A stretch of 64,000 bases of DNA from a virus. Made by a program: the position numbers and the translations under genes. Of this stretch, positions 5,570-54,432 are shown in pieces. The stretch spans positions 1-64,000 of the IMG/VR virus record IMGVR_UViG_3300023440_000003; one strand, given 5' to 3'. Position 1 is the first letter of the stretch. Every line of letters begins with the position of its first letter. The notes beneath the pieces are model-generated. The model was not told the DNA's origin. It made no database searches and was given only the letters and a program-made list of their open reading frames with translations.

Positions 5570-5608
5570 GGGTGACACCTCCTTTTCTGAATTTAAATTC
5601 TTTTAACA

Positions 5609-5650
5609 ATAAAAATTAAAAACCTCCACCAGCACTTAGGCCGGTGGAGG
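5609..5650 (-). terminator. Rho-independent terminator or attenuator
   Basis: An 8-9 bp stem (CCTCCACC at 5623-5630 with 5643-5650) and a 12-base loop are followed on the minus strand by TTTTTAATTTTT. It separates the small gene at 5682-5855 from the MoxR-VWA operon. The next gene starts only about 40 bases beyond the T tract, so the structure could act as an attenuator on read-through transcripts. Confidence 0.7.
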
Positions 5651-5681
5651 TGGGAGTGAGGGATTAGGACAGGAGGCGGCC

Positions 5682-5855
5682 TTATGTTCTTTTAGTCATT
5701 TTATTCAGAATATTCCATTCTCTTTTAGTAAAAACAACATCACTTGAAAATTTGTTTTTCTTTGCTAATGTGGTGGCTTCGTTTCTAGAAGCGGCCTTTA
5801 CTTTAAGGACCTGTTGCTTTTTAAAATTGACACAATAATAGATTGTTCTCGGCAT
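5682..5855 (-). CDS. Small basic hypothetical protein
   Basis: This is a 57-residue ORF with a near-perfect ribosome binding site (ACAGGAGGTG) 6 bases before its ATG. It is rich in Lys and Arg, with a two-strand start (MPRTIYYCVNFKKQQVLKVK) and a helical C-terminus, resembling small phage-encoded basic proteins that interfere with host processes. The first 58 bases overlap the 3' end of the upstream gene in another frame. It is followed by a terminator. No family is recognised. Confidence 0.6.
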   Translation of the reverse strand: MPRTIYYCVNFKKQQVLKVKAASRNEATTLAKKNKFSSDVVFTKREWNILNKMTKRT

Positions 5856-6544: not shown

Positions 6545-6652
6545 TTACTCTTCTTCTTTATTCTTTTCTCTCATATTCTGTGCCGCTGTTATAACAGTGG
6601 CACTGATAGCCACCGCAATTGCGGTGGCTATTAAAATTTTCAATCCTTTCAT
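6545..6652 (-). CDS. Very small membrane protein (35 residues)
   Basis: An ATG preceded by GAAGGAGGTGATGCG opens a 35-residue frame with one hydrophobic helix (LKILIATAIAVAISATVITAA) flanked by Lys residues and a charged C-terminal tail ending EKNKEEE. This layout fits a small single-span membrane protein. The hydrophobic part is encoded by two adjacent DNA palindromes, which is unusual for coding sequence. The first gene of its operon, it has a TATGGT box upstream at 6686-6691. Function unknown. Confidence 0.6.
   Translation of the reverse strand: MKGLKILIATAIAVAISATVITAAQNMREKNKEEE
6582..6631. repeat. Two adjacent DNA palindromes inside a small ORF
   Basis: 6606-6631 is a perfect 26-bp palindrome (half site ATAGCCACCGCAA). 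6582-6601 is a 20-bp palindrome with one mismatched pair (half site GCCGCTGTTA). They are 4 bases apart and lie within the coding part of the 35-residue protein. No T tract follows on either strand, so they do not look like ordinary terminators. A protein-binding site, or an RNA hairpin controlling translation or stability, is possible. Confidence 0.7.
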
Positions 6653-21346: not shown

Positions 21347-24300
21347 TTATGGCCTCTTAGGTTCAAAAGGTTTAATATTGGATATTATATTTTCCATACT
21401 GGCTTGTTCTGGTTTAAATTCATCTATGTTTGTTACTGGCACACTTAAGAGACCTGTTTCTAGATTCATCGAAAATAATCCTCTGTAGCTTCCACCATAT
21501 TTCATTGGTGATATATCTAATCGAATTTGTCCTTTGCCTGGCTTTTTTGTAATAGTGTATTTATCTGGTGCGCCACTTGCCGTTATAAATTGTTGTAATT
21601 TTCTCTTTATCATATCTCTAGCTTCGTCGATAGTTCGTTTTTTCTTTAAATAGCCTATGACATAAAAACCTCTTCCTCCTGAGAATCTAACTTCCACTTG
21701 TTTAATGTCTGGATCTTTTTTCATGAAATCTCTTACCTTTTTTGTTACTTCTTTGATTTGATCAAAATCTACATCAGGCCCTGGATCGATATCTACAACT
21801 AATCTATCAGTTATAGCACCAAATGATGGATGAAATTCTACAGTTCTTCTTTCAATCCAGTATTGAAAGTCTTCTGGATTGTCTACATCTCCTTTATGTT
21901 GTTTTATTTTTATTTTTTCTTCATCTATATTACGTCTTAGTACTATCCTGGAAGGATCAAATGCTTGCATTACAATTACCTGAGGGAATTGTTTCAATTC
22001 ATTAAGAAGATTTTTTCTGATTTTTGGTTGCATATAGAGTAAGAATATATCTCTTTTGGTAAAACTACCGAATGGTGCGTCTACTATGATATTATCCCAT
22101 CTTTCTGGATCGGGAGTTTTTGATGCTACTTTTTCTATAAATTCTTTGCCCTTTTCAGGATGCCATCCTATAAAAACTGGCTGTCTAAGTGCTCCATCGG
22201 GGTATTGTCCGGCTGCTCTGATTTTTGCCACTCGACCTATATATTTTTCTGGATGTTCTGCCATATCTTTTCTTTGTTCCATTGTAAATCCTGCACCTAC
22301 TCTTCCTACCACGGGCCCGTTAGGTTCGAAAGAGTATTCTATACCTCCAGCATATTTGCCTCTCCAGTTTGGAGAAGAGGATTCAAAGATACCTACTACA
22401 TAAACATCATATTCAGGTTTGAATTTTGCTTTTACAGGTTTTTCTACATCTTCGAGATTTTGTATTACTATACCTTCTTTAGATTCAGGTATGGATCCGG
22501 TACGTATTGCATCAAAAAGCATTTGCTTTTCTTCTTTGGTAAACGCTGCTTGTGGAGGTTCTGCATAAGGAAAGTGTTGAACGAATTCATTAATCAGCCT
22601 TAGTTTTTCTTTGTAAGGTAATTCTTTTTCTACATATTGGTCTTTAAATTTTACAACATCAAATACCGTAAGGCGGGGCTGGACTTTTTTGCTTTCAATA
22701 AGTTTTCTACTTATTGGAGTCTCGCTATGGGTAACACTTACTATTTCATTAATTGGTTTAGCCTGTCCTTTTTCATCTGTAAGAAAAAGTTCGGCTCTGA
22801 ATATACTTCCTTTGAATGATGAAGGCACTTTGAATTTTCCATAAGGAGGAACTTTATATGTATGTTCTATTAATCCCGTACTTGTGCTTACAGCCCATCT
22901 TGGTGAAAAGAGCTTGACTTTACCATCTGGTTTTACATAAAGAAGAACTTGTACACCATCATCTTTTCTGGTAAATATGTATCTATCATCATTTAGGAAT
23001 CTTTTAATTGCTTCTTCTGGAGTTATTTCTTTGTATTTTTCTTTACCTTCCGGAAGGTCCAGTAGTTTATCTCTGGTATCGGTAACATTTATCATGTACC
23101 AGTTATCACCTTGACCTTTAGTTAACAGGTATTCTTGAGTTTCATTTGCTCGATATATGTTGAATCTTATATGAGAATCATCTGCACTTAAGATGTCAGC
23201 TTTACCTCTGAACTCTATGGTTACTGTTCCTGCACCATAGTATCCATCAGGAATGCGTCCTGAAAAATTCATATAGTCCATTGTGTGATCTGGTTGTCTT
23301 ATGAATAATCGACGTTCTCCTGGCATAGGCCAGTATCTTCCCGCCCAACTGTAAGCTATTTTTGTTTTAGGATCTCCAAGTCTGAAATCGAGGTGGCTAT
23401 TCGATACAAGCAAACTGCCTGCAAAGTAATTATGATTATCTTCTACTTCAATATCATATCGTTCTAGTGGTTTTGACGGATTTACTTTTATATACTTTAT
23501 CTCTCTGATAGGTACAGGCAATAAGGTCATTTCATTATGCGTTGCAGCTGTCCAGTTGTAATATCCTATTTCATCTAAAGGACATTTATATTCCATGCCT
23601 TTAGCGATGTAAGGAGCTACTAATTTTAGGAATCTTTCTATACTTTTTTTCCTGTTTATGGAAATATAGTAGTAGGTTTTGCCGTTAGGATAAGTTCTAT
23701 TTCTTAGAGTAGCGTGGATTTCGTATTTTTCTCGTAGCCATGTAATAATAAGTTGTACATCTTCTTTAGGAAAGCCGAGAGTGTGTAAGAGTATTTGCTG
23801 ATGCGGACTAATTCTTTTTCCTCGGTCTGATCTAGGTCTACGTTTGTATCGAGCTGAATGTTTAATAACATAGTCGCCTCCCGGAACATATTGACCATCA
23901 TCCATATACCATACTGCTAATGCTCTTTCGTCTATCATATCTAATATTTCCTTAGTGATACGTTTCTTGCCGTCTTTGTATAAGATATTTCTGAGTAGAT
24001 AAAACCATGGATGTTTTATTCTGAAATAGTAATAGTCTTGTCTTTTGCCTTTACCTTGTCTAATTTCGACGTCCATTTTAAACGTTGGAGAGAGAAGTTT
24101 GTAACCAAAATCGAAATACTCTTTGTTGACTTGTCCCCAATTGAATGTCCAAGGAGTAGTCTGCGGAATAGACCCATCACCTAATAGCGCACCTAAGATA
24201 AATTGTTTTTGATCTTCTGTTAAATTTTGCACAGGCATCAACATATAATCCCCTTTACGAACATCTTTAGCCAGTTTTGGGATAATTTTTCCATCCACAT

Positions 24301-24778
24301 ATACATACACTTTATGGTTTCCTGTCAGTGTTATTGACCCACGTCTCGAGTGGAATCTAAGTCTTATCCATTCAGTGGATGTTCCATTTTTATACCAGTT
24401 AACCACCCTTTTCCATTCCAGTTTACCTGTTCTAAAATTGTAGCTTAGGACTTTTATAGGTAGACGTTTGTTGACTATTTCTTGAATTCTTATTCTTCCC
24501 TTGTCAGTGATAATTCGTGTGCCTCCCGTCAAACATCCAGCACGTTTAGCATTATGCTTTTGAATGACGCATTCCCATTCTACTGGCGGATCATCAGGTC
24601 CAAGTTTTATAGTCGGAATTGGGGATTTTTGTTCAAAATTTATAATTCCAGTTATAGCAGTATCATTGTATCTGGATTGTGCTCTCTGTATTAATTTATC
24701 CGCTTCTTGCAATAATGGGTCTTCAAGTACAGCCAGATTGTTTAGATTTTCCGCTATTTTAGTTAATTTTTTCCACAT
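21347..24778 (-). CDS. ligD-like: LigD-type NHEJ ligase: phosphoesterase-ligase-polymerase, intein-containing
   Basis: The 1143-residue precursor contains a 379-residue intein (82-460); the spliced protein would have 764 residues. After a 68-residue leader comes a 3'-phosphoesterase domain with H75, H462, D464, R466 (SHLDFR), H498 and Y502 (DHTMDY). The ATP-dependent ligase domain has the nucleotidyl Lys K605 (KDDG, residues 605-608), E663, F706-D707, E768-G769 (EGIVIQ) and K783/K785. The C-terminal domain is a primase-polymerase with DID metal ligands (VVDIDPGP), SGGRGFYV and a GxxRG-SxN segment. The order matches Pseudomonas LigD (PE-Lig-Pol). LigD repairs double-strand breaks with Ku; no Ku gene is seen here. 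All catalytic residues I can check are present. Confidence 0.88.
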   Translation of the reverse strand: MWKKLTKIAENLNNLAVLEDPLLQEADKLIQRAQSRYNDTAITGIINFEQKSPIPTIKLGPDDPPVEWECVIQKHNAKRAGCLTGGTRIITDKGRIRIQEIVNKRLPIKVLSYNFRTGKLEWKRVVNWYKNGTSTEWIRLRFHSRRGSITLTGNHKVYVYVDGKIIPKLAKDVRKGDYMLMPVQNLTEDQKQFILGALLGDGSIPQTTPWTFNWGQVNKEYFDFGYKLLSPTFKMDVEIRQGKGKRQDYYYFRIKHPWFYLLRNILYKDGKKRITKEILDMIDERALAVWYMDDGQYVPGGDYVIKHSARYKRRPRSDRGKRISPHQQILLHTLGFPKEDVQLIITWLREKYEIHATLRNRTYPNGKTYYYISINRKKSIERFLKLVAPYIAKGMEYKCPLDEIGYYNWTAATHNEMTLLPVPIREIKYIKVNPSKPLERYDIEVEDNHNYFAGSLLVSNSHLDFRLGDPKTKIAYSWAGRYWPMPGERRLFIRQPDHTMDYMNFSGRIPDGYYGAGTVTIEFRGKADILSADDSHIRFNIYRANETQEYLLTKGQGDNWYMINVTDTRDKLLDLPEGKEKYKEITPEEAIKRFLNDDRYIFTRKDDGVQVLLYVKPDGKVKLFSPRWAVSTSTGLIEHTYKVPPYGKFKVPSSFKGSIFRAELFLTDEKGQAKPINEIVSVTHSETPISRKLIESKKVQPRLTVFDVVKFKDQYVEKELPYKEKLRLINEFVQHFPYAEPPQAAFTKEEKQMLFDAIRTGSIPESKEGIVIQNLEDVEKPVKAKFKPEYDVYVVGIFESSSPNWRGKYAGGIEYSFEPNGPVVGRVGAGFTMEQRKDMAEHPEKYIGRVAKIRAAGQYPDGALRQPVFIGWHPEKGKEFIEKVASKTPDPERWDNIIVDAPFGSFTKRDIFLLYMQPKIRKNLLNELKQFPQVIVMQAFDPSRIVLRRNIDEEKIKIKQHKGDVDNPEDFQYWIERRTVEFHPSFGAITDRLVVDIDPGPDVDFDQIKEVTKKVRDFMKKDPDIKQVEVRFSGGRGFYVIGYLKKKRTIDEARDMIKRKLQQFITASGAPDKYTITKKPGKGQIRLDISPMKYGGSYRGLFSMNLETGLLSVPVTNIDEFKPEQASMENIISNIKPFEPKRP
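23399..24535 (-). mobile_element. Intein with LAGLIDADG homing endonuclease in LigD
   Basis: The 379-residue insert begins with Cys (CLTGGTRI, block A), has a block B with TLTGNH, two LAGLIDADG-type motifs (ILGALLGDGS and LAVWYMDDGQ) and ends in YDIEVEDNHNYFAGSLLVSN before a Ser+1. The last two residues are Ser-Asn rather than the usual His-Asn. Removal joins AKRAG to SHLDFRL, restoring a recognisable LigD phosphoesterase active site. Insertion in the most conserved motif of the host gene is typical of homing inteins. Confidence 0.9.
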
Positions 24779-33490: not shown

Positions 33491-33919
33491 ATGAGAAGGA
33501 TTGATTATATAGTAATTCATCATTCTGCAAGTTCTTACGGTGATTCAAAATTAATAGATAGATGGCATAGAGAAAGAGGATTCAAAAAGATAGGTTATCA
33601 CTATATCATTTTAAATGGCTTTAGAAAAAATAGCCGGGAATACGAAGTAGCTTTTGATGGTTTTATAGAACCTGGAAGAAAATTATCAGAAATAGGTGCA
33701 CACGTGAAAGGATATAACAAGAATTCTATAGGCATATGCCTTATAGGAAATCATTTGTTTACGTTAAATCAATTCATAAGTTTGAAAATTCTTGTTAAAG
33801 AGCTAAAAAATAAATTTCCTACTGCTAAGGTGGTAGGTCATTGTGACCTGGATCCAGTAAATAAACCTGACTGCCCAGGATTTGATGTTGATACATTTAT
33901 AGCTGAAGTTTTGGATTAA
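33491..33919 (+). CDS. N-acetylmuramoyl-L-alanine amidase (T7-lysozyme type endolysin)
   Basis: The 142-residue protein is a single amidase_2 domain. The zinc ligands are likely H10 (YIVIHHSAS), H117 (VVGHCDLDP) and C128 (NKPDCPG), with K126 in the position of the catalytic Lys of T7 lysozyme and Y36 (GYHYII) as the conserved Tyr. It cleaves the amide bond between muramic acid and the stem peptide, so it is probably the lysis enzyme, though a tail-tip role is possible because it follows an adhesin-like gene. There is no signal peptide, so release would need a holin. Confidence 0.9.
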   Translation: MRRIDYIVIHHSASSYGDSKLIDRWHRERGFKKIGYHYIILNGFRKNSREYEVAFDGFIEPGRKLSEIGAHVKGYNKNSIGICLIGNHLFTLNQFISLKILVKELKNKFPTAKVVGHCDLDPVNKPDCPGFDVDTFIAEVLD

Positions 33920-33927
33920 TCTTTCAT

Positions 33928-34198
33928 ACCAGGGAGGATCCCAGTAGTCCCCCTTGGCCGGGGGGCTCGGGGCACTACGGGTCTAGCCCCACCCCGCCCG
34001 TGGCCCTGAGAATCCTGGGATCGAAGAGGCTGTATGAGTAGGAGGGGCGCCCGGTAGGGGGTAGCCTCTCCGCTGCCCTGCGGTAGGTCCCACCTACCGC
34101 AGGGAAGGCTGACTGGGGACCCGGGACCCGGTCAGCCCAGGGTCAGCGTCGGACCGGCCTGGTCCACCGGTGGCGCTGACTTGGAGTTTTTTTTTTTT
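33928..34198 (+). ncRNA. GC-rich structured RNA, about 270 nt, unassigned
   Basis: The gap 33920-34240 is the only gap over 300 bases without a gene. In 33931-34180, 177 of 250 bases are G or C by my count, against about a third elsewhere. Clear helices: GATCCCAG 33937-33944 with 34015-34022 (long-range); AGAGGCT 34025-34031 with 34063-34069; a perfect 13-bp stem CCCTGCGGTAGGT 34076-34088 with 34092-34104; GGCTGAC plus 4 more pairs, 34107-34117 with 34127-34137; and GTCAGCG 34142-34148 with 34174-34180 before a 12-T tract. No long ORF is present. It lies between endolysin and a holin-like gene. It does not resemble tRNA, tmRNA, SRP or RNase P RNA by eye. Confidence 0.75.
34137..34198 (+). terminator. 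Terminal hairpin and poly-T of the structured RNA
   Basis: GTCAGCG 34142-34148 pairs with CGCTGAC 34174-34180; CCAG 34137-34140 can extend the stem with TTGG 34181-34184; an inner stem GGACC/GGTCC is possible. After GAG comes a run of 12 T residues (34187-34198). This is a strong intrinsic terminator and gives the 3' end of the RNA. Confidence 0.8.
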
Positions 34199-34220
34199 AG
34201 CTATTATTTTATTTTAGACT

Positions 34221-34226
34221 TTTGAT
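34221..34226 (+). promoter_or_regulatory. -10 box (TTTGATAAAAT) before 34241
   Basis: TTTGAT followed by AAAAT; the ATG at 34241 lies 14 bases after the hexamer and has no ribosome binding site. It differs from the TATGATAAAAT box at 9879 by one base and has the same spacing, so it seems to be the same promoter class. Confidence 0.45.
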
Positions 34227-34240
34227 AAAATAGCTAAAAA

Positions 34241-34474
34241 ATGAAGGTTCTAGATTTAGAATTTATACGCAATAAGAAAAGGTGGAAGTACTTTTTATAT
34301 AAACTTTCTTTTTACATGATTTTATTATCTACGGCGATATTTTTTGGAGCAGTTCTTTTTGCACTTATAGAAGGATTGGTTAAGTATAGATTATGGAAGT
34401 TAGTTGGTGTAGCAGCGTTAGGCGTGTTTGTATTTTTTATTATATTCCATTACACTTGTGAGGAATTTGATTGA
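34241..34474 (+). CDS. Small two-span membrane protein, holin candidate
   Basis: The 77-residue protein has a charged N-terminus (LEFIRNKKRWKYF) and two membrane spans (SFYMILLSTAIFFGAVLFALI and LVGVAALGVFVFFIIF). Size and two-span layout fit a class II holin, and the amidase gene is the nearest protein-coding neighbour upstream, with only the structured RNA between them. Holin function is an inference from topology and position. The last 25 bases overlap the convergent minus-strand gene. Confidence 0.5.
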   Translation: MKVLDLEFIRNKKRWKYFLYKLSFYMILLSTAIFFGAVLFALIEGLVKYRLWKLVGVAALGVFVFFIIFHYTCEEFD

Positions 34475-37844: not shown

Positions 37845-38723
37845 GTGGCTTATTATTCTTTCCTATCTAATTCAGCAAACTTAATTACTGACATAAAGAA
37901 TGTTCTTGTGACTAATGAAGGATGGATAGATTATGACCCGACATACAATGTAGTTCAGACTCCAGCTACTGCGGCCTATCCTTTTTTCTTTAGGTTTGTG
38001 CAGGTGTTAAATCATTATAGGTTAGATGGAGCTGCCTATCTTGGTTGGGATAATGTCAATCACACTGGTAGTTTTGCTTCTCCAACAAAGTATGCTCAAT
38101 TTTATAGCACTACTCCAACAGTTACTCCTGCTGCAGTCAATGTAATTATGTACGTCTGGAATAATGGTTTCATTATATGGCTTAAAGGTGCTGCTACAGA
38201 TGGTACTCCCTATACAGGTATGTTTTATATAGGAGATATGGAAGTTTTAAGTGACTTTCCTAATACTATGCCTCTTGCTTATCTTGCTACATATGGAACT
38301 GTGTATGCTCCTGGTTTTGTGGGAGCATGTCCATACACGAGAAATCAAACAGAATTCATATGGAATAATACTGGTTACTATTTTGTTCTTTCTTCCATAA
38401 TTCCTGCTGCAAATTATTATGTTCATGTAGGCACAACCACAACTCCTGAAGGTGAGAGGTTATGGTTGAATGAATTGTTTTTAGTTAACGTCAATAATCT
38501 GACTGCCAACGCTGTTGCTCAGGGTATTATGGGAAAGCTTAGATTTGTGAGAGGTATTTCACAAGATGTAGCATTACTTGACGGTGATGAAATTGTCGAC
38601 CAGTTTAACAGCTGGACTTTTGTGTCCTTACCTCAAGATGGAGGAAATCAGTTCAACAATGCAATGTGGAATGATTTGAGAAATTATACCTCTTTTAAGT
38701 ACATTGCTATTTTTAAGGCGTAG
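37845..38723 (+). CDS. Tail fibre/adhesin paralogue 1
   Basis: The 292-residue protein starts with GTG after GGAGGTTAAAT. It shares most of its length with the protein at 38908 (NEGWIDYDPTYNV, LGWDNVNHTGS, NGFIIWLKG, YIGDMEVLSDFP, DVALLDGDEIVDQ), but the last 30 residues differ almost entirely before a common hydrophobic end. It is rich in Tyr, Trp and Asn, as expected of receptor-binding surfaces. Together with the next small gene it forms a unit that was duplicated in tandem. Confidence 0.65.
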   Translation: MAYYSFLSNSANLITDIKNVLVTNEGWIDYDPTYNVVQTPATAAYPFFFRFVQVLNHYRLDGAAYLGWDNVNHTGSFASPTKYAQFYSTTPTVTPAAVNVIMYVWNNGFIIWLKGAATDGTPYTGMFYIGDMEVLSDFPNTMPLAYLATYGTVYAPGFVGACPYTRNQTEFIWNNTGYYFVLSSIIPAANYYVHVGTTTTPEGERLWLNELFLVNVNNLTANAVAQGIMGKLRFVRGISQDVALLDGDEIVDQFNSWTFVSLPQDGGNQFNNAMWNDLRNYTSFKYIAIFKA

Positions 38724-38907: not shown

Positions 38908-39771
38908 ATGGGATTCTATATAGGGTCTGCCACCAGAGACATTTTAATATCCACTATAAAAACCAATCTTGTCAATGAGGGTTGGATTGATTACGATCCA
39001 ACATACAATGTAATTCAAACTCCTACAACAGCAACATATCAGTTTTTTGTAAGGTTCATATCGATAGATGATCAAAAGCTTAGCATCGCTTGTTATTTAA
39101 ATTGGGATAATGTGAATCATACTGGGTCACAGTCGTCTAACACTAAGGATATTGTATTTTTTGATTCTCCTCCTAATACGACTCCACCTAACGTTAACTA
39201 CATTTTGAGATCGTGGGGAAATGGATTTATTCTATGGCTGAAAGGAGATCCTCTACATGGAAGTCCACAATATAATCTTGCATATATTGGAGATCTAGCA
39301 GTTGTTACTGATTTTCCTCATCCATTTCCAGTAATATTTATGTGTTCTTCGTATTTTTCTGGTGCTTCTCATCTTGGATCTGGATATATTGTAGCCAAAA
39401 ACCGTTTTGGCGAATTTGTGTGGGGTGGTCCTGCACATTACGCTCATCTTGTTTCAATCCCGCCATGTTCCACATGGGAAGGAGGTTATACGATAAATGG
39501 AGATGTAAATACTCCAGATGGACAGAGATTATGGATGCCTGAGTTGTATCTAGTAGCAGCAAAACAGCCTCAAGGTGTTTATGGCCGACTGCAATATATT
39601 AAAGGTATTACTCAGGATATAGCTTTTTTTGATGGGGACGAATTGATAGATCAAAGCGGGAACAGTTTTGTTGTAGCAAATCTTTACAATCGTTATGGCG
39701 AATTCTGCAATTTACTAGGGGCTTATCCTTATGCATATAATATAAAAAGAGTTGCTATACAGAAAATCTGA
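38908..39771 (+). CDS. Tail fibre/adhesin paralogue 2
   Basis: The 287-residue protein follows AGGGAGGTCAGCT and is a paralogue of the protein at 37845, with the same opening (NEGWIDYDPTYNV) and the same order of Trp/Tyr motifs. The last 30 residues (VANLYNRYGEFCNLLGAYPY) differ from paralogue 1, so receptor contacts may lie there. It overlaps the next gene by one base. Likely a receptor-binding component. Confidence 0.65.
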   Translation: MGFYIGSATRDILISTIKTNLVNEGWIDYDPTYNVIQTPTTATYQFFVRFISIDDQKLSIACYLNWDNVNHTGSQSSNTKDIVFFDSPPNTTPPNVNYILRSWGNGFILWLKGDPLHGSPQYNLAYIGDLAVVTDFPHPFPVIFMCSSYFSGASHLGSGYIVAKNRFGEFVWGGPAHYAHLVSIPPCSTWEGGYTINGDVNTPDGQRLWMPELYLVAAKQPQGVYGRLQYIKGITQDIAFFDGDELIDQSGNSFVVANLYNRYGEFCNLLGAYPYAYNIKRVAIQKI

Positions 39772-45604: not shown

Positions 45605-46855
45605 TCAATTTGCATTTGTACACAAAATTAATACTTTATCTGGATACTTTGAATGTCTAAACACTAATATTTGAACAAATCCTGATATATTTCGTGGGGT
45701 TAGTATTATTTTTTGAGTTTTGGGGTTAAGTTTCTCTAAAAGTGCACTTATCTTTCTATACAAGGCTATATATTCTGTGGTTGACCCCAGTAACCTGAAG
45801 CCTTTATTATATAGCTTTTTGATAAGATTTCTTAAATCGTCCTTATATTTGTATTGTATTATTGCTATGTTTATATCTGGCTTATTTATTTCAGCATTCT
45901 CGAAGAATCTGTCGTATAGGTGAATGGTATGTCGACCATAAAGTTCAACGCCAGCACTTTTTGCTGCCCATAATATAGGGTTTATGTATCCATAATAACC
46001 GTTCTTTTTATTATGGTCTCTTTCTTTATCTAAAAATACAGCAGCTTTTTTGGATAATGATCTGGGAAGTTTTAACATTACTTTATCGTCAGTTTTTACG
46101 AAATATAATCCAAGAAATTTGAATTCCTCATTTTTCCTTATTGGTGTGATACGGATCTTAAATTTATAACGTCCAAATACAGACTTAATGTAGTTTATGA
46201 TTTTTTCATCACTTAAACTAGATTGAACTCCTATTAAAAAATCATCAGCATATCTGAATGTCACCATCGATAGCGATCTATTATATGCTTTTGTAATCAC
46301 ATTAAGTCTGTAAGTTAAGCCCGTAGTAAGTATTCCGGCAAGTATAGGTGATGTAGGTAATCCATAAGGGATATGACCATTTATGAAACAATACGTTTTA
46401 ATTACGTCTATGAATCTATCTATATCCATACCTAACTGCAACTTATTTACCTTAGCTATAAAATTTATTGAATCGTCCAATGCGACGTCATAAGTTTCAT
46501 ATAATTTTTTTGGGAGAACATATTTATATAGGTCTAATCTGTCAGGAGTTATTGATTCGAAGTAATTTATTACATCCACTTTAAAAAATCTTCTGTCATC
46601 TTGCAGTATATGAAAGAGTTGTAGGAATTTTTGGCCTGAATGTACTGATGAGATAGCGAAATCAGTACAGTTAGTTTCGACATATTTTAGATATATGATG
46701 TAGTGTGTACTTAGAGTGTTATGCAAAATTTTTAGAACTTTTTCGTAAGGACCTAACGGTATATATATTTTTTTAAACTTATCTTTCTTCTTTATTTGTC
46801 TGACTCTATACACTTTGGGTATTTCTTTCTTGAAAATTTTTGTTTCAAACTCCAT
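45605..46855 (-). CDS. Free-standing reverse transcriptase
   Basis: The 416-residue protein has RT motifs in order: FFKVDVINYFESI (palm, first Asp), IPYGLPTSPILAG (fingers/palm), the catalytic FRYADDFLIG (YADD box) and FKFLGLYF. The C-terminal 150 residues form a thumb-like region that I cannot assign. The LPTSP motif is as in retron, group II and abortive-infection-type RTs, not the TSQ form of diversity-generating retroelements. AAGGAGGTGATGC precedes the ATG. Genes abut it on both sides (1 base downstream, 56 upstream), so there is no room for an intron, msr-msd RNA or template repeat. It may be a defence-type or unassigned phage RT. Confidence 0.88.
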   Translation of the reverse strand: MEFETKIFKKEIPKVYRVRQIKKKDKFKKIYIPLGPYEKVLKILHNTLSTHYIIYLKYVETNCTDFAISSVHSGQKFLQLFHILQDDRRFFKVDVINYFESITPDRLDLYKYVLPKKLYETYDVALDDSINFIAKVNKLQLGMDIDRFIDVIKTYCFINGHIPYGLPTSPILAGILTTGLTYRLNVITKAYNRSLSMVTFRYADDFLIGVQSSLSDEKIINYIKSVFGRYKFKIRITPIRKNEEFKFLGLYFVKTDDKVMLKLPRSLSKKAAVFLDKERDHNKKNGYYGYINPILWAAKSAGVELYGRHTIHLYDRFFENAEINKPDINIAIIQYKYKDDLRNLIKKLYNKGFRLLGSTTEYIALYRKISALLEKLNPKTQKIILTPRNISGFVQILVFRHSKYPDKVLILCTNAN

Positions 46856-46890
46856 GCATCACCTCCTTTTCTACTTCTTATATCTCTAAA

Positions 46891-46896
46891 TATGCT
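46891..46896 (+). promoter_or_regulatory. -10 box (TATGCTAAAAT) before the RNA polymerase gene
   Basis: TATGCTAAAATG: the hexamer ends 3 bases before an ATG at 46900 and 15 bases before an in-frame ATG at 46912. The same sequence TATGCTAAAAT precedes the gene at 61548, again with 15 bases to the ATG. The divergent RT gene has its ribosome binding site in the same 56-base gap. Confidence 0.55.
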
Positions 46897-46911
46897 AAAA
46901 TGTTCAAAGAA

Positions 46912-49900
46912 ATGGTCAAGGAATTCATTCAATTTGTCAAGTCAGTATTTCCGATAGCCACACAGAATCGTGAGATTAAACTGGATAATGTCTATACAGA
47001 TGCTTCCAAAATACCCGATGTATCTGATTATCAAATCCAAAAAAGATACAGACTTGAAGGCCGAAGTTTAAGTGTACCGGTTTATGCAGATTTTACTCTG
47101 TATGAAAAAGGCAAAGTTGTTGCTAAAGCACAGAAGTTGCTAATCGCTCGCGTACCGTTAAAACTTCCTAGAGGAACTTATCTGTTTAAGGGTAATGAGT
47201 TCTTTGTTGCAAATCAGCTTCGTTTGAAGCCAGGAATTTATGTCAGAATTAGAGAAAACGGAGAAGTGGAGGCCCATTTCAATTTAGCTAAGTGGACTTT
47301 TAAAGCTTATTTTAATGGAAGTAAAGTTTATGCTAAGTTCACAAGAGGTCCTGCTATACCTTACTATACATTACTGAAGCTATTTGGTGCTTCTGAAGAT
47401 GAGATTAAAAATGCATTTGGCGAACTATATAATGAGAACATTTTATATGACGAAGATGCTATTCTTGGGTGGTATCGTGCATATTATGGAGAAGGTACTA
47501 AGGAAGAAGCTGTAAAAACATTCAAAAGTATATTATCCTCCGGTTACAGGTTTGATCCGGAAATTTCCAGGCATCTTTTAAATATAGAAGCATCAAACAT
47601 TAATAAAGATGTCCTGCTTGCAGCTTTAAAAAAACTTATCGCAGTACGGAGAGGTGAGAAAGAACCTGATGATAGAGATGCTTTGTTTTTTAAACAGCTA
47701 TTGGAAGAAAGCGATATATTAAGTGAACATTTTCATAATATGAAATCAAAAGTTATTTTTAAAATACGAAGAAATCTAGTATTAAAAGACAAAATAAGAG
47801 ATATTGTTCCTATAGCTGTATTTCAGAGTGTTGTAGACAATGTTTTTACTAAAGATCTTGTAAATCCTTTAAAGCAAACAAATCCAGTAACCATTGCAGA
47901 AAACAATTCCAGAGTAACTATTTTTGGAGAAGGAGGTATTAAGTCAGAATATGCAGTGCCTTATCAGGCTAGAGCACTTAATCCGTCGCATTTTGGTATT
48001 GTAGATCCAGTAAGGACTCCAGAATCTTCAAAGGTAGGGGCTGTATTATTTAGAACAATTGGAGCTGGTAAAGATCCGAAGACTGGTCTACCAGCAACTG
48101 AAGTTTTAGATGTGAAAACAGGAAAGCTTAAACGGATAACATCAACTGAATTTTTTAATTCAAGGGTTGCTTTTCCTGACCAAATTAAAGAAGTAAAAAA
48201 TGGTAAGGTAGTTTTTAAGAACAAGTCTCAGGTAAAAATACTATACCGTGGAAATATTGAAATAGTTCCTGCATCTAAAGTGGATTATGTTGTGCCTAAC
48301 TACATGAATGTTTTTACTGTTTCGACCCTATTTTTACCTTTTTTACAATCATTACACCCTAACCGTGCTTCTAAAGCAGCAAACACCATAACACAAGCAC
48401 TTCCATTAAAATACAGGGAACCTCCTTTGGTCCAAAGCGCAATATCAGAAAATTTATCTATGGTGGATATTGTAGGCAGGCAATATTCAGTGAGATCTCC
48501 TGTGGATGGAGAGATAAAATCGGTTAAGAATAATGTGATAGTCATCAAAGATAAAAAAGGAAAAGAGCATAAAATATCTTTAGCTGATTATCTTCCATTG
48601 AACCAAAATAGTTTCATCTCTATGGAAATTAAAGAAAATATAAAACCTGGCGTAAAGGTAAAAAAGGGAGATTTGCTGGCAGATACTAATTTTACAAAAG
48701 ATGGTCAGTTGGCGTTAGGAGTGAATGCTATTACTGCTTTAATGCCGTTCAAACATTTAAATTTTGAGGATGGTATTGTGGTATCAGAGTCTTTTGCTAA
48801 AAAGCTTACTTCTCAACGTTTATTTCACTTTCGTTATCCTTTAGGTTCTGATGTAAAAATTGACAAAGAACTTTATCGATCACTTTATCCTCATGAATTA
48901 CTTGAAGACAATTATAAAAAGTTGGATGAGGATGGAATAATAAAGAAAGGAGCAGTAGTTAAAGATGGTGATATATTAATAGCGGGCTTAGTAAAAAAGA
49001 AGGAAAGTAAAATAGACGAAATAATTGCTCGGTTAAACAGACGTTTAGTTCAACCCTGGGTAAAAAAGCCATTAATTTGGGATAAAGAGTTTGATGGCAT
49101 AGTAAAAGACGTAATTAAGACAAAACAGTTTATATCTATAACTGTTCTTACTGAAGAACCAGCAATAGTTGGAGACAAATTGACAAACTCTCATGGTTCA
49201 AAAGGAGTCATTGTGCACATAATTCCTGATGATCAAATGCCTAAACTTCCGGATGGTCGAACTGTAGAGGTAATCATAAATCCTGTCTCTATTCTTGGAA
49301 GAAATAATCCATCTCAGGTTTATGAAATGGTAGCTGGAAAAGTAGCTGAAAAACTAAAACAGCCTTTAAAAATTCCAGCATTTGGAGTAGATGACACTCA
49401 TAAGTTATTAAAAAATCTCACCAAACAATATGGGGTTTCGGATACTGAAACTTTAATTGATCCAGTTACCGGAAAGAAAATCCCCAATGTTATGGTTGGT
49501 CCTATGTACATTTATAAACTGGAACATCAAGTAGAAGAAAAAATGTCAGCCAGATACAAAGGAGCCTATGATCAGTGGGATATGACTCCAGCAAAAGGTG
49601 TTGATGAACCTGGACAGGCTGTAGGGCTTATGGAAATATATGCTTTATTGGCTCATGGTGCAGGAAATGTATTAAAAGAAATGGCTACATGGAAGTCAGA
49701 GCGTAATCCTTTATTCTGGGAGGCCATAGAAAATAACTTACCTCCTCCGCCCCCAAAGACTACATTTGTTACTAAAAAATTCGAGAACTTATTGAGAGCT
49801 GCTGGAATTGATGTAAAAAAAGAAGGGCATCTCGTAAGGATAATGCCACTTACTCAAAGCCAGGTTAAATCTCTCACACAAAATCGTTTCATAAAAAATG

Positions 49901-52900
49901 CCAAGATGGTAGTAGCTGGTACTTTAAAAGAAGAAAGTGGTGGTCTTTTTGATCCAGAACTAACTGGTGGTTTACGTGGAGATAAATGGGCTGCTATTAA
50001 GTTACCGGATAAGTTACCTTCACCTATCGTATTGCGTGTGTTTAGCTTATTATTGAATATGAAAGAAAAAGATATTAAAGATATAATTCTTGGTGTTAAA
50101 AAAATTCAGGGAATGTCTGGTTCTGAAGCTATTCTCAAACTGTTAAAGTCTAAATCTTTAGACGAATATTTGAAGCAAGCTCAGGATATGGCTGACGTAG
50201 CTAAGCGGTCTAATAATTTGAACGAGTTAAATAAAGCTAACTTGATTATACGTTTTATAAAATACATGAAGGAGAATAACATTAAATGGGAGGAATTCTT
50301 TCTCGATCGCTTGCCGGTACTCCCTCCTCAATTCCGTCCTGTGTATGTTGATAAACATAACAGGTTATTTCATTCAGATTTTAATCTTGTATACAGAGAT
50401 ATTAAATTACTGGCGGACCAGATCCAGAGAGCAAAGCAGGAAGGTTTACCTGAAGACGAGATTAACAAAATGAAGAAAGATTTATATGAATCTATTGAAA
50501 TTCTGTATGGTCTGGCGGATCCTTCTTCTAGATATTATGGTAAACGTAAACCCAGAGGAATACTTGACTACATTCATGGACCAAAACCTAAAGAAGGTTA
50601 CTACCAGCACAAAGTACTCCGTAAAACTCAGGATTTATCTGGACGCTCTGTTATTGTTCCTAATCCTGGCCTCCATCCAGATGAAATCGGTATCCCAGAG
50701 GAAATGGCGTGGAAGATATTTGAACCTTTTATTTTAGCTAAACTTAAATCAGAGTTTGCTATGTCTCCTGCTGAAGCAAGGATCGAACTGGCTAATCGAG
50801 GTGATAAGGCCAGAAAAGCTTTGGAATTGGTCGCCAGCGAACGGTTAGTTATTGTTAATCGCGCACCTTCACTTCATAAATACAATATGCTCGCTTTTAA
50901 ACCTAAAATTGTTCCAGGACATGCTATACATTTTCCAAACGTCGTAGTATCTATGCAAAGTGGTGATTACGATGGCAACTCGTTAGCTGGTGATGAATAT
51001 GTGATTTATTCGTTGAAAGATGAAATATATTTTCGTCCTATTAAAGACTTTCCTAGGGAAGATTCTCCGTACAAGATTAGTAAAAGAGGTGTTAAATATT
51101 TTAAAGTTCCACCAGGCATCAAGGTTCTTGCCTATGATTATAATACAAACACCTTGAAGTGGGATAAGGTCAGTAGTTTTAGTGAACATCCAGTTCAGAA
51201 AGTTTATAAAGTTAAGACTTATCATGGAGCTTCGGCTGTAGTTACTGGAGATCATTCTTTACTTGTTTTTGATCCAAGAGATTATACTTTCAAACGTATG
51301 TCTCCTTTGGAGATAATGCGTAATAAAAACAGGCGTTTTTTTGTGGTCAGACCTAAGAAAATTCGTCCTCTCGTAGAGGTTCCGCGTATAAAATTAGGCG
51401 ATTTGGAGTTAGATTTGGATTTTGAACTTGGTTATTTAATTGGATGTTATGTTGGGGATGGTTGGGTTGACAATCGGAATGGTTTTTACATTGCTAGTAT
51501 GGATAACGGAATTTACGGTAAGCTTAAAAGACTAATAAAGCGGAAATTTAATGTGGCTATGAAAGCTAGAAAAGCTGTAACCAAGATTTTTAAGGGTTAT
51601 GAAGCAACTTCTAGAAAGTTATACGCTAATTTACCTAAGGAATTCAGACGATTTTTAAAAGAAAATTGTGGAAGCAAAGCTAGTGATAAAAAATTACCTT
51701 CTCCTATTTACTTTTGTTCGCCTGTTATTTTCAGATTAGGATTATTATCTGGTTTACTTGATACGGATGGTACAGTGCATCAATCTTCTGAAGGTAGGTT
51801 CACTATCCTTTATAATACTATTTCTGAAGTTTTAGCAGATGAAGTTAGAATATTAGCTCTTAGTCTTGGTATCAGATCTACGATTAAAAAGGTTAAGAAT
51901 ACAGATGGTGTTGAGTATTTTCAGATTATATTTTCCTGCAAGGATTTAGCTGAAGCTGTTTTTGGAAAAGGTATACACCTTAGACTATATCATACAAAGA
52001 AAAAGAAGATTCTGAGTAAGCTTTTTGAAGTAAAGCGAGATAAACGTTTCAATGGCAGTTTGTTCAATATTGTTCCTATATCTGAAGAGTTAATATATCT
52101 TTTGAATTATTCATATCGAAAAGGTTCTAGATTTTCAGCTGATTTCATCTTAGATACTATTAAGCGTGAATACGTTCCGAAGGAAATGATATCTTCTATA
52201 TTACATAATGTTCATCCTAGACATGAACATTTAAAAAAACAGTTCGAGTTACTTAAAGCTTTTATAGAGACAGATGATGTATGGTTTGATTTTATTACAG
52301 AAGTCATTCCGCAGCAGGAAGTTCCTACCTATGATTTAACTACAGAATCTAAGACTTTTCTGTGTGGTATAGATTTCATAGTTTATGATACTACTGCAAT
52401 ACATGTTCCAGTAACTCAAGAAGCTCTGCAGGATGCAGTAAAGCTTTTACCTTCTCAGAATTGGCTTCATGAGGGGCGTCCTAAAGAAATATGGCTTACG
52501 CCAAAGATTGAAGCAATATGGGGGCTCTATAAAATAACCCGAGACGGAAAAGATAAAAGCAAACAGTTTAAATTCAATAATGTAGATGATGCATTACGTG
52601 CTTTTCACAGAGGTGATATTGACATTACGGATACTGTTGTGATTAATAATCAAAAAACTACTTTAGGTAGAGCCTTAGTTAACCGTATTTTACCTAAAGA
52701 TTTCAGAGATCCTAATATTAAACTAGACAAAACCACTATAAATAAATTGATGCGGAATATTTTTGAAAAATATGGCGGTAAAGAAGGTGCCAGGGTTGCA
52801 GGAGAATTGAATAAACTTGGAGGAGATTTTGCTTATCTTATCGGATTTAAATTGTCTTTAGATGATTTTAGTCCTAAATTTGAGGATTTATTGGACAAAG

Positions 52901-54432
52901 CGTTTGTAGAATCGCTTAAAACTAAAGATCCATCAAAAATTAACCGTAAGGCTATGGAGCTGCGTCAAAAAATAATGAAGTCTTTAATGAAGCAGGATGA
53001 TAACACTTTGGTACAATTAGTTAAATCCGGTACACGCGCTAAAAAAGATTCCTTAATGCAACTTTTAGCTTCGCCAGTACAGCTTGCTGATGTATATGAT
53101 CGTCCAATTCCTGTAATAGTTCCAAGAGGATATGCTAAAGGTATGGACACTATTGATTACTTATTTGCTTCTTATGGTGCTAGAAAAGGAGCGATAGAAA
53201 AAACAGTTAAAACAGGGGAACCTGGAGAGCTTTCAAAAGAACTTGTTGCTGCAGCGATAGATTATGTAATAACTATGGAAGATTGTGGAACTAGAAAAGG
53301 AATCGTTATGGATGTGGATAAGGCAGATGCTTTAAACAGAGCTTTAGCAGAAAATGTGGTTAAAAATGGTAAGATTATTGCAAAACGTAATGAGATAGTT
53401 GATGGTAAAGTATATGAAAAACTCAAAGAATCAGGAGTGAAACAGGTAAAGGTAAGATCACCTTTGACATGTGAAGCCCCTGATGGTATATGTGTGTTAT
53501 GTTATGGTGCTAAACCTGATGGCACAATGCCTCATATAGGAGAATACGTAGGAATTAAGAGTGCACAGTATTTAAGTGAACCTGTAACACAGATGACTAT
53601 ATCTTCTGTACATACTGGTGGACTTGTTAAAGATATGGGCACTTCTTTTCAGGATATTAGAGCCGTAATGGAAATGAGTAATGTGCCTGCTAGAGCCACG
53701 GTTGCTAAAGTTGCTGGCAAAGTAGAAAAAATTGTGAAACGGCCAGAAGGCGGATATGAAATAATAATAGATGGAAAATCTCATATCACTTCTCCATGGG
53801 TTGAACCTAAAGTTAAAGAAGGAGATGAAGTAGCCAAGGGTGATATTTTAACTACTGGTTTACCCCATCCAAAAGATATCTATGATGCCGCAGGCTTGGA
53901 AGCTGCACGTAATTTTGTAGTGAATTATCTTGATACTGCTTATCAACAAAATGGTATGAAGTTAGACAGGCGTCATTTTGAAATTATAGGCAAAGTTATG
54001 TTTGATACAGCTGTTGTTACTGATCCTGGTGACACGGATTTAGTTCCCGGAGATTACGTTAAAATTAATAAACTCAAAGCTTTAAACGCACAGATGCCTC
54101 CAGAAATAGACGTATCTTTAGAAGACGCAGCAGGTAGAATCTTGGCAACTCCTGTAGATAAATATCCTGCAGGTACTAAGTTAACTTCTGAGATAATAGA
54201 TGATTTAAGAAAGAAAAAAATAAAAACCGTAAAAGTTAGAAGCAAGCCAGCATCATTCAAACCCGTAGTTAAAGGTATAGAACAATTGCCATTGCTTCGT
54301 GATGATTGGCTTACAAGAATGGCTTATAGAGATATTAAAAATACTGCTATAGAAGGGGCTCTACGTTCATGGAGTTCTGACTTACAAGGCTACAGTCCGA
54401 TACCAAAATTAGTGTATGGAGAGACTCCATGA
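46912..54432 (+). CDS. rpoBC-like: Fused beta-beta' DNA-directed RNA polymerase, intein-containing
   Basis: The precursor has about 2506 residues; splicing removes 470 and leaves about 2036. The beta half shows NPLKQTNPVT, PSHFGIVDPVRTPES, HLNFEDGIVVSES, VGDKLTNSHGSKGV and YKLEHQVEEKMSAR. The beta' half follows after a PPPPP linker, with QDLSGRSVIVPNPGL, VNRAPSLHKYNM, the catalytic loop SGDYDGN (then intein, then TTAIHVPV), a bridge-helix segment (SGTRAKKDSLMQL), ASYGARKGAIEKTVKT, a Cys cluster (TCEAPDGICVLCYG) and the trigger-loop start SEPVTQMTISSVHTGG. The N-terminal zinc domain of beta' is absent. Start at 46912 fits the promoter; 46900 is possible. It would transcribe phage genes; no alpha, omega or sigma is seen here. 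Confidence 0.93.
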   Translation: MVKEFIQFVKSVFPIATQNREIKLDNVYTDASKIPDVSDYQIQKRYRLEGRSLSVPVYADFTLYEKGKVVAKAQKLLIARVPLKLPRGTYLFKGNEFFVANQLRLKPGIYVRIRENGEVEAHFNLAKWTFKAYFNGSKVYAKFTRGPAIPYYTLLKLFGASEDEIKNAFGELYNENILYDEDAILGWYRAYYGEGTKEEAVKTFKSILSSGYRFDPEISRHLLNIEASNINKDVLLAALKKLIAVRRGEKEPDDRDALFFKQLLEESDILSEHFHNMKSKVIFKIRRNLVLKDKIRDIVPIAVFQSVVDNVFTKDLVNPLKQTNPVTIAENNSRVTIFGEGGIKSEYAVPYQARALNPSHFGIVDPVRTPESSKVGAVLFRTIGAGKDPKTGLPATEVLDVKTGKLKRITSTEFFNSRVAFPDQIKEVKNGKVVFKNKSQVKILYRGNIEIVPASKVDYVVPNYMNVFTVSTLFLPFLQSLHPNRASKAANTITQALPLKYREPPLVQSAISENLSMVDIVGRQYSVRSPVDGEIKSVKNNVIVIKDKKGKEHKISLADYLPLNQNSFISMEIKENIKPGVKVKKGDLLADTNFTKDGQLALGVNAITALMPFKHLNFEDGIVVSESFAKKLTSQRLFHFRYPLGSDVKIDKELYRSLYPHELLEDNYKKLDEDGIIKKGAVVKDGDILIAGLVKKKESKIDEIIARLNRRLVQPWVKKPLIWDKEFDGIVKDVIKTKQFISITVLTEEPAIVGDKLTNSHGSKGVIVHIIPDDQMPKLPDGRTVEVIINPVSILGRNNPSQVYEMVAGKVAEKLKQPLKIPAFGVDDTHKLLKNLTKQYGVSDTETLIDPVTGKKIPNVMVGPMYIYKLEHQVEEKMSARYKGAYDQWDMTPAKGVDEPGQAVGLMEIYALLAHGAGNVLKEMATWKSERNPLFWEAIENNLPPPPPKTTFVTKKFENLLRAAGIDVKKEGHLVRIMPLTQSQVKSLTQNRFIKNAKMVVAGTLKEESGGLFDPELTGGLRGDKWAAIKLPDKLPSPIVLRVFSLLLNMKEKDIKDIILGVKKIQGMSGSEAILKLLKSKSLDEYLKQAQDMADVAKRSNNLNELNKANLIIRFIKYMKENNIKWEEFFLDRLPVLPPQFRPVYVDKHNRLFHSDFNLVYRDIKLLADQIQRAKQEGLPEDEINKMKKDLYESIEILYGLADPSSRYYGKRKPRGILDYIHGPKPKEGYYQHKVLRKTQDLSGRSVIVPNPGLHPDEIGIPEEMAWKIFEPFILAKLKSEFAMSPAEARIELANRGDKARKALELVASERLVIVNRAPSLHKYNMLAFKPKIVPGHAIHFPNVVVSMQSGDYDGNSLAGDEYVIYSLKDEIYFRPIKDFPREDSPYKISKRGVKYFKVPPGIKVLAYDYNTNTLKWDKVSSFSEHPVQKVYKVKTYHGASAVVTGDHSLLVFDPRDYTFKRMSPLEIMRNKNRRFFVVRPKKIRPLVEVPRIKLGDLELDLDFELGYLIGCYVGDGWVDNRNGFYIASMDNGIYGKLKRLIKRKFNVAMKARKAVTKIFKGYEATSRKLYANLPKEFRRFLKENCGSKASDKKLPSPIYFCSPVIFRLGLLSGLLDTDGTVHQSSEGRFTILYNTISEVLADEVRILALSLGIRSTIKKVKNTDGVEYFQIIFSCKDLAEAVFGKGIHLRLYHTKKKKILSKLFEVKRDKRFNGSLFNIVPISEELIYLLNYSYRKGSRFSADFILDTIKREYVPKEMISSILHNVHPRHEHLKKQFELLKAFIETDDVWFDFITEVIPQQEVPTYDLTTESKTFLCGIDFIVYDTTAIHVPVTQEALQDAVKLLPSQNWLHEGRPKEIWLTPKIEAIWGLYKITRDGKDKSKQFKFNNVDDALRAFHRGDIDITDTVVINNQKTTLGRALVNRILPKDFRDPNIKLDKTTINKLMRNIFEKYGGKEGARVAGELNKLGGDFAYLIGFKLSLDDFSPKFEDLLDKAFVESLKTKDPSKINRKAMELRQKIMKSLMKQDDNTLVQLVKSGTRAKKDSLMQLLASPVQLADVYDRPIPVIVPRGYAKGMDTIDYLFASYGARKGAIEKTVKTGEPGELSKELVAAAIDYVITMEDCGTRKGIVMDVDKADALNRALAENVVKNGKIIAKRNEIVDGKVYEKLKESGVKQVKVRSPLTCEAPDGICVLCYGAKPDGTMPHIGEYVGIKSAQYLSEPVTQMTISSVHTGGLVKDMGTSFQDIRAVMEMSNVPARATVAKVAGKVEKIVKRPEGGYEIIIDGKSHITSPWVEPKVKEGDEVAKGDILTTGLPHPKDIYDAAGLEAARNFVVNYLDTAYQQNGMKLDRRHFEIIGKVMFDTAVVTDPGDTDLVPGDYVKINKLKALNAQMPPEIDVSLEDAAGRILATPVDKYPAGTKLTSEIIDDLRKKKIKTVKVRSKPASFKPVVKGIEQLPLLRDDWLTRMAYRDIKNTAIEGALRSWSSDLQGYSPIPKLVYGETP
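50980..52389 (+). mobile_element. Intein with LAGLIDADG endonuclease in the RNA polymerase catalytic loop
   Basis: The 470-residue insert starts with Ser (SLAGDEYV, block A), has a block B with VVTGDH, two LAGLIDADG-type motifs (LGYLIGCYVGDGW and LLSGLLDTDGTV) and ends in PTYDLTTESKTFLCGIDFIV then YD, before Thr+1. The final residue is Asp instead of Asn. Excision joins SGDYDGN to TTAIHVPV, which aligns with NADFDGD-QMAVHVPL of bacterial beta'. The insertion lies exactly in the magnesium-binding motif. Confidence 0.88.

Follow-up and report, generated by a model that had tools for sequence, protein, structure and literature searches.

In the window (i.e., the 64,000-base stretch analysed here, bases 1-64000 of a linear virus record of 79,587 bases), an endolysin gene and a short hydrophobic ORF lie in tandem on the + strand, separated by 321 nt of ORF-free sequence (33920-34240) with a G+C content of 0.60. 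The endolysin (33491-33919) is an N-acetylmuramoyl-L-alanine amidase (Amidase_2, E 3e-14; phrog_822, lysis, E 9e-40), and the downstream ORF (34241-34474) encodes 77 residues with two hydrophobic stretches and has no clear Shine-Dalgarno sequence. The initial annotation had termed this ORF a holin-like gene; its hydrophobic character stands, but no family match was obtained, with no hit in Pfam or PHROG and no significant one in NCBIfam. The gap is the only ORF-free one longer than 300 nt, as had been stated for the window, and this is also true of the entire record, where the next-largest gaps measure 219 and 215 nt. It houses the element described here, which starts 9 nt past the endolysin stop codon and reaches a run of twelve T residues (T12) ahead of the 77-aa ORF.

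Other genes in the window include a GpA-type terminase, baseplate genes, and a portal that is 22% related to that of Salmonella phage Arash. The virus also encodes a fused beta-beta' RNA polymerase of 2,530 aa (46840-54432, + strand), which shares 30-32% identity, over the aligned part, with the enzymes of Arash and Vibrio phage D69; it contains an intein that sits in the catalytic loop, and its motif is DYDGN, against DYDGD in two relatives, the third catalytic aspartate appearing to have become asparagine. A large ORF on the minus strand (21347-24778), primase/ligase-like in its C-terminal part, likewise appears to carry an intein when its translation is read by eye. The window further contains a perfect 26-nt palindrome (6606-6631) and two adjacent tail-fibre-like genes sharing a 50-nt stretch that is 84% identical (37914-37963 and 38974-39023), probably through duplication. 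The heat-loving setting proposed for this DNA is in keeping with the amino-acid composition of its proteins: the IVYWREL index is 0.415, compared to 0.33-0.39 in comparison loci, which suggests that the host, a bacterium, is probably thermophilic, the index being an indirect indicator rather than proof.

The element is set apart by its base composition. At positions 33931-34180, 177 of the 250 bases are G or C (0.708), just as first counted, against 0.350 elsewhere, and among all 250-nt windows the maximum (0.712, at 33929-34178) is followed by a next-highest value of only 0.524 (genome SD 0.042). A protein-coding reading was rejected, as all frames contain stops and no ORF with a start reaches a useful length. 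When folded as + strand RNA, the region gave a minimum free energy (MFE) of -154.6 kcal/mol, whereas dinucleotide-matched shuffles averaged -130.75 +/- 5.59 kcal/mol (z -4.27; 0/200 as stable). In a comparison of the two strands, the + strand reached z -4.46 (0/300 shuffles as stable) and the minus strand z -2.0 (9/300). The core alone (33929-34184, +; approximately 256 nt including both strands of the closing helix, G+C 0.71) still had a z of -4.1 when folded at 37 °C and of -2.9 when folded at 70 °C, with none of 100 shuffles as stable. The GC-rich, multi-helix region that had been noted is thus confirmed, and with its fold, its strand preference, and the lack of an ORF all favoring a structured RNA on the + strand, we regard the element as very probably a real one. 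A genome-wide scan by 200-nt windows put 34001-34200 (+) first for energetic stability, yet not for lowest z; structured gaps elsewhere, both in this virus and among its relatives, match or go below the element's value. The z-score alone is therefore not unique evidence, and it is G+C contrast together with absolute stability that distinguishes the element.

Hairpins of this strength could also act in single-stranded DNA, as part of an origin, a recombination site, or a packaging site. Folded as DNA, the + strand again beats its shuffles (z -3.3), and a second pair of strong GC-rich hairpins lies between divergent genes at record positions 75863-76077 (fold z -6.5), one of them being the 34-nt near-palindrome CGGGTAGGAAGGGGAATTCCCCCCTTCCTACCCG. 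Such a DNA-level role is nevertheless improbable, given the RNA-like strand asymmetry, the 10 G-U pairs held by the 70 °C fold, which become mismatches if the other strand is read, and the presence of T12 on one side only.

At 37 °C the RNA has two predicted architectures lying 1 kcal/mol apart, whereas at 55-70 °C a single compact plan is obtained, consisting of a closing helix, a four-helix 5' domain, and four 3' hairpins, followed by T12. The closing helix (CCAGG/CUUGG, 33929-33933/34180-34184; 5 bp with one G-U), taken from the 55 °C fold, forms all five pairs at that temperature and three of five at 70 °C, and is replaced by other pairing in the 37 °C MFE structure. The 5' domain (33937-34022), present at both 55 and 70 °C and captured in our structure model R1, comprises P1 (33937-33944/34015-34022; 8 bp, perfect), P2 (33947-33953/33960-33966; 7 bp, loop UUGGCC), P3 (33967-33973/34003-34009; 7 bp), and P4 (33976-33982/33996-34002; 7 bp). 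The 3' hairpins are P5 (34041-34071; 34041-34052/34059-34071, 8+4 bp, with pair probabilities of ~1.0 in the 8-bp part), P6 (34076-34104; 34076-34088/34092-34104, 13 bp, perfect, CCC loop), P7 (34107-34137; 34107-34117/34127-34137, 11 bp with one G-U), and P8 (34141-34181; 34141-34150/34172-34181, 10 bp, plus an inner 5 bp with two alternatives). All of these parts are on the + strand. The helices of 13, 11, 8, 7, and 7 bp listed in the initial annotation are all present, although of the two long ones only the 13-bp helix is perfect, and not both as claimed. Its suggested pseudoknot between GACCC (34118-34122) and GGGTC (33979-33983) was rejected, since it needs the 5' strand of P4, a more stable local helix with which it would compete.

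Four of the six hairpin loops (UUGGCC, CUAGCCCCACCCC, GACCCGGGA, and GGCCU) have self-complementary cores, namely GGCC, CUAG, CCCGGG, and GGCC; the CCCGGG core is a 6-nt palindrome within the 9-nt loop of P7. Permuting loop letters gave P 0.04 for four such loops when pooled and 0.0014 within loops, and 1.5% of refolded shuffles reached at least three self-complementary loops. This test was made post hoc, once the pattern had been seen, and the palindromes are thus a lead only; that the RNA self-associates through them is speculative.

The T12 tract (34187-34198, +), a candidate release site and longer than any other run of A or of T in the window, lies 2 nt past the closing helix and 5 nt past P8. 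An intrinsic terminator was taken to require a U tract 0-2 nt after the stem, and owing to the 5-nt spacer our strict scan did not call T12; of the 3' hairpin with a 12-T tract described earlier, the tract is there, with this spacer between it and the last hairpin. The end of T12 also forms part of a perfect 13-bp AT-rich inverted repeat (34193-34205/34229-34241, +), whose last base doubles as the opening base of the holin-like start codon. The U tract is predicted to pair with 34023-34031 at 37 °C, an interaction that may represent an alternative state. Upstream, a possible extended -10 (TGGATTAAT, 33912-33920, +) was read by eye and would, as a weak inference, place the RNA start at ~33927-33928; it is absent from the promoters found by our scan.

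These features bear on a cis-acting reading, in which the fold and T12 would stop or slow the polymerase and shield the 3' end of the endolysin transcript, while read-through, perhaps with an antitermination factor, would set the level and timing of holin-like gene expression. The element fills the space between the endolysin gene and the holin-like ORF, in the same orientation as both, T12 is present, the inverted repeat reaches the start codon, the U tract has a possible alternative partner, and a fused RNA polymerase is encoded by the virus itself; having a hydrophobic gene next door also fits this role. However, the element is far bigger than a terminator or the known put elements, T12 starts 5 nt beyond P8 and was passed over by the terminator scan, and the holin identity of the 77-aa ORF is unproven. 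What appears to be an ordinary terminator of this virus, in the gap at 5579-5797 (minus strand), has just one 12-bp hairpin, trailed by a T-rich stretch, so that one hairpin would suffice and the approximately 200 nt of extra folded RNA are not needed for termination. We therefore consider the cis-acting reading the main alternative, possible but somewhat unlikely.

A retron-like reverse transcriptase (RT) is encoded on the minus strand at 45605-46855, head-to-head with the RNA polymerase gene. Its best matches are retron RT models (NF038233, E 5e-14; Ec86 in the PDB), with scores far under the curated cut-offs, and neither NAXXH nor VTG, the retron signatures, was seen in its sequence by eye. 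No msr-msd or other ncRNA adjoins it, and there is no upstream room for one. Relatives of the RT were found neither in phage records nor in IMG/VR, and self-comparison yielded no template/variable repeat pair, so that a diversity-generating retroelement was rejected. The element could in principle be the template or partner RNA of this enzyme, encoded apart from it: it has a closing helix, the RT has no space for an RNA of its own, and searches found each of the two in this record only. Yet 11.7 kb and opposite strands separate them, and together with the missing signatures and the low scores this led us to reject retron membership; a link between RT and RNA is possible but weak, and the partner reading is very remote.

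Searches for families and relatives of the element were consistently negative. With Rfam 15, no match in the window exceeded the gathering threshold (including GOLLD, ROOL, OLE, tmRNA, RNase P, SRP, 6S, group I and II introns, and HDV-like models), and relaxed searches (E up to 10) returned only weak, unconvincing hairpin matches, the best involving a microRNA model, to which a simple minus-strand hairpin scored far under the cut-off. ARAGORN found no tRNA or tmRNA, and the earlier by-eye exclusion of tRNA, tmRNA, SRP RNA, RNase P RNA, and GOLLD/ROOL is thereby upheld. In blastn searches of phages and plasmids only chance matches were obtained. Single-protein scans with the terminase, portal, and capsid protein revealed no close relatives; portal relatives aligned at 21-28%, an RNA-polymerase alignment yielded 80 loci at 27-36%, and GTDB genomes yielded 26 at 26-36%. 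Neither blastn nor nhmmer detected the element in the part of these relative loci searched. Structure models of both domains (R1 and R2), applied to 50 virus records reached via endolysin, portal, or RNA-polymerase relatives, recovered only the window itself and one chance-level match (E 0.5), an absence that is weak evidence because the relatives are remote, many of the records are fragments, and those nearest to the window's own may be missing. The P6 hairpin pattern gave nothing in IMG/VR.

The foreign composition of the element and its absence from relatives would also suit a GC-rich fragment picked up recently from the host or from mobile DNA and serving no purpose in the virus. Against such an origin, neither phages nor plasmids yielded a match, nor did rRNA or any other Rfam family; 103 Thermotogota genomes contained nothing at E 0.01, and a Thermotogota host origin was rejected on this basis. 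Moreover, a random GC-rich piece would not give z -4 on one strand, and we judge this explanation to be improbable too.

Taken together, we tentatively favor a stand-alone, very stable, late non-coding phage RNA of ~256 nt, followed by a U-rich 3' end. The + strand would be transcribed, with the RNA forming the closing section of the tail/endolysin transcript or, alternatively, beginning at a start of its own directly downstream of the endolysin gene; the RNA would be freed at the U tract of T12 and act in trans late in infection as an independently folded molecule, probably a scaffold binding either a protein or itself. Some 200 nt of strong additional structure, the helix that closes it, and the asymmetry between strands suggest that the RNA is retained in its own right, and since this structure exceeds what a terminator needs, a stand-alone RNA is preferred over an attenuator or 3' shield. 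At 55 °C the closing helix brings its ends together, leaving 9 nt to the endolysin stop codon on one side and 2 nt to T12 on the other, whereas the near-equal 37 °C folds and the lack of a homologue in the collections searched count against it. A more ambitious version, in which the RNA founds a class of small phage RNAs self-assembling via palindromic loops, or serves as a template of the distant RT, and is extra GC-rich for lysis in the heat, is doubtful.

If real, the element would be an orphan structured RNA from a little-known phage lineage whose members encode a fused RNA polymerase of their own. Its modest size would suit SHAPE, cryo-EM, or mass photometry, and it is probably heat-stable. 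With it one could ask, in a small system, whether short phage RNAs self-assemble like GOLLD, ROOL, and OLE; should the cis-acting reading prevail, it would be a new kind of lysis-gene attenuator.

The element ranks as a new candidate among phage structured RNAs, orphan as to family, and several known systems invite comparison. The lambda late leader with tR' and the HK022 put RNA, the models for the cis-acting reading, likewise combine structured RNA and a T tract before a lysis-type gene; the element shares no demonstrated sequence with them, is much more stable, and follows the endolysin rather than opening a late operon, as the lambda leader does. The HIV-1 dimer-initiation-site hairpin is the basis for comparing the P7 loop, which has the same layout, a 6-nt G/C palindrome preceded by two purines and followed by one; this is an analogy only, as sequence and setting are unrelated. 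Retron msr-msd RNAs also have a 5'-3' closing helix and several hairpins, and a retron-like RT is present in the genome, but the element is not adjacent to this RT, which has no visible retron signatures. GOLLD and ROOL are similarly phage-encoded, extensively folded, ORF-free, and of unknown function, and GOLLD expression goes up during lysis (PMC12286853); GOLLD exceeds 800 nt, however, and the element has neither tRNA genes nearby nor an Rfam match. Although no sequence or model match links the element to OLE, both are extremophile RNAs, and OLE dimerises partly via a symmetric loop that carries the palindrome GGCC (PMC12286853), a motif found here in two loops. OLE and GOLLD provide the precedent for symmetric palindromic kissing loops (PMC12286853).
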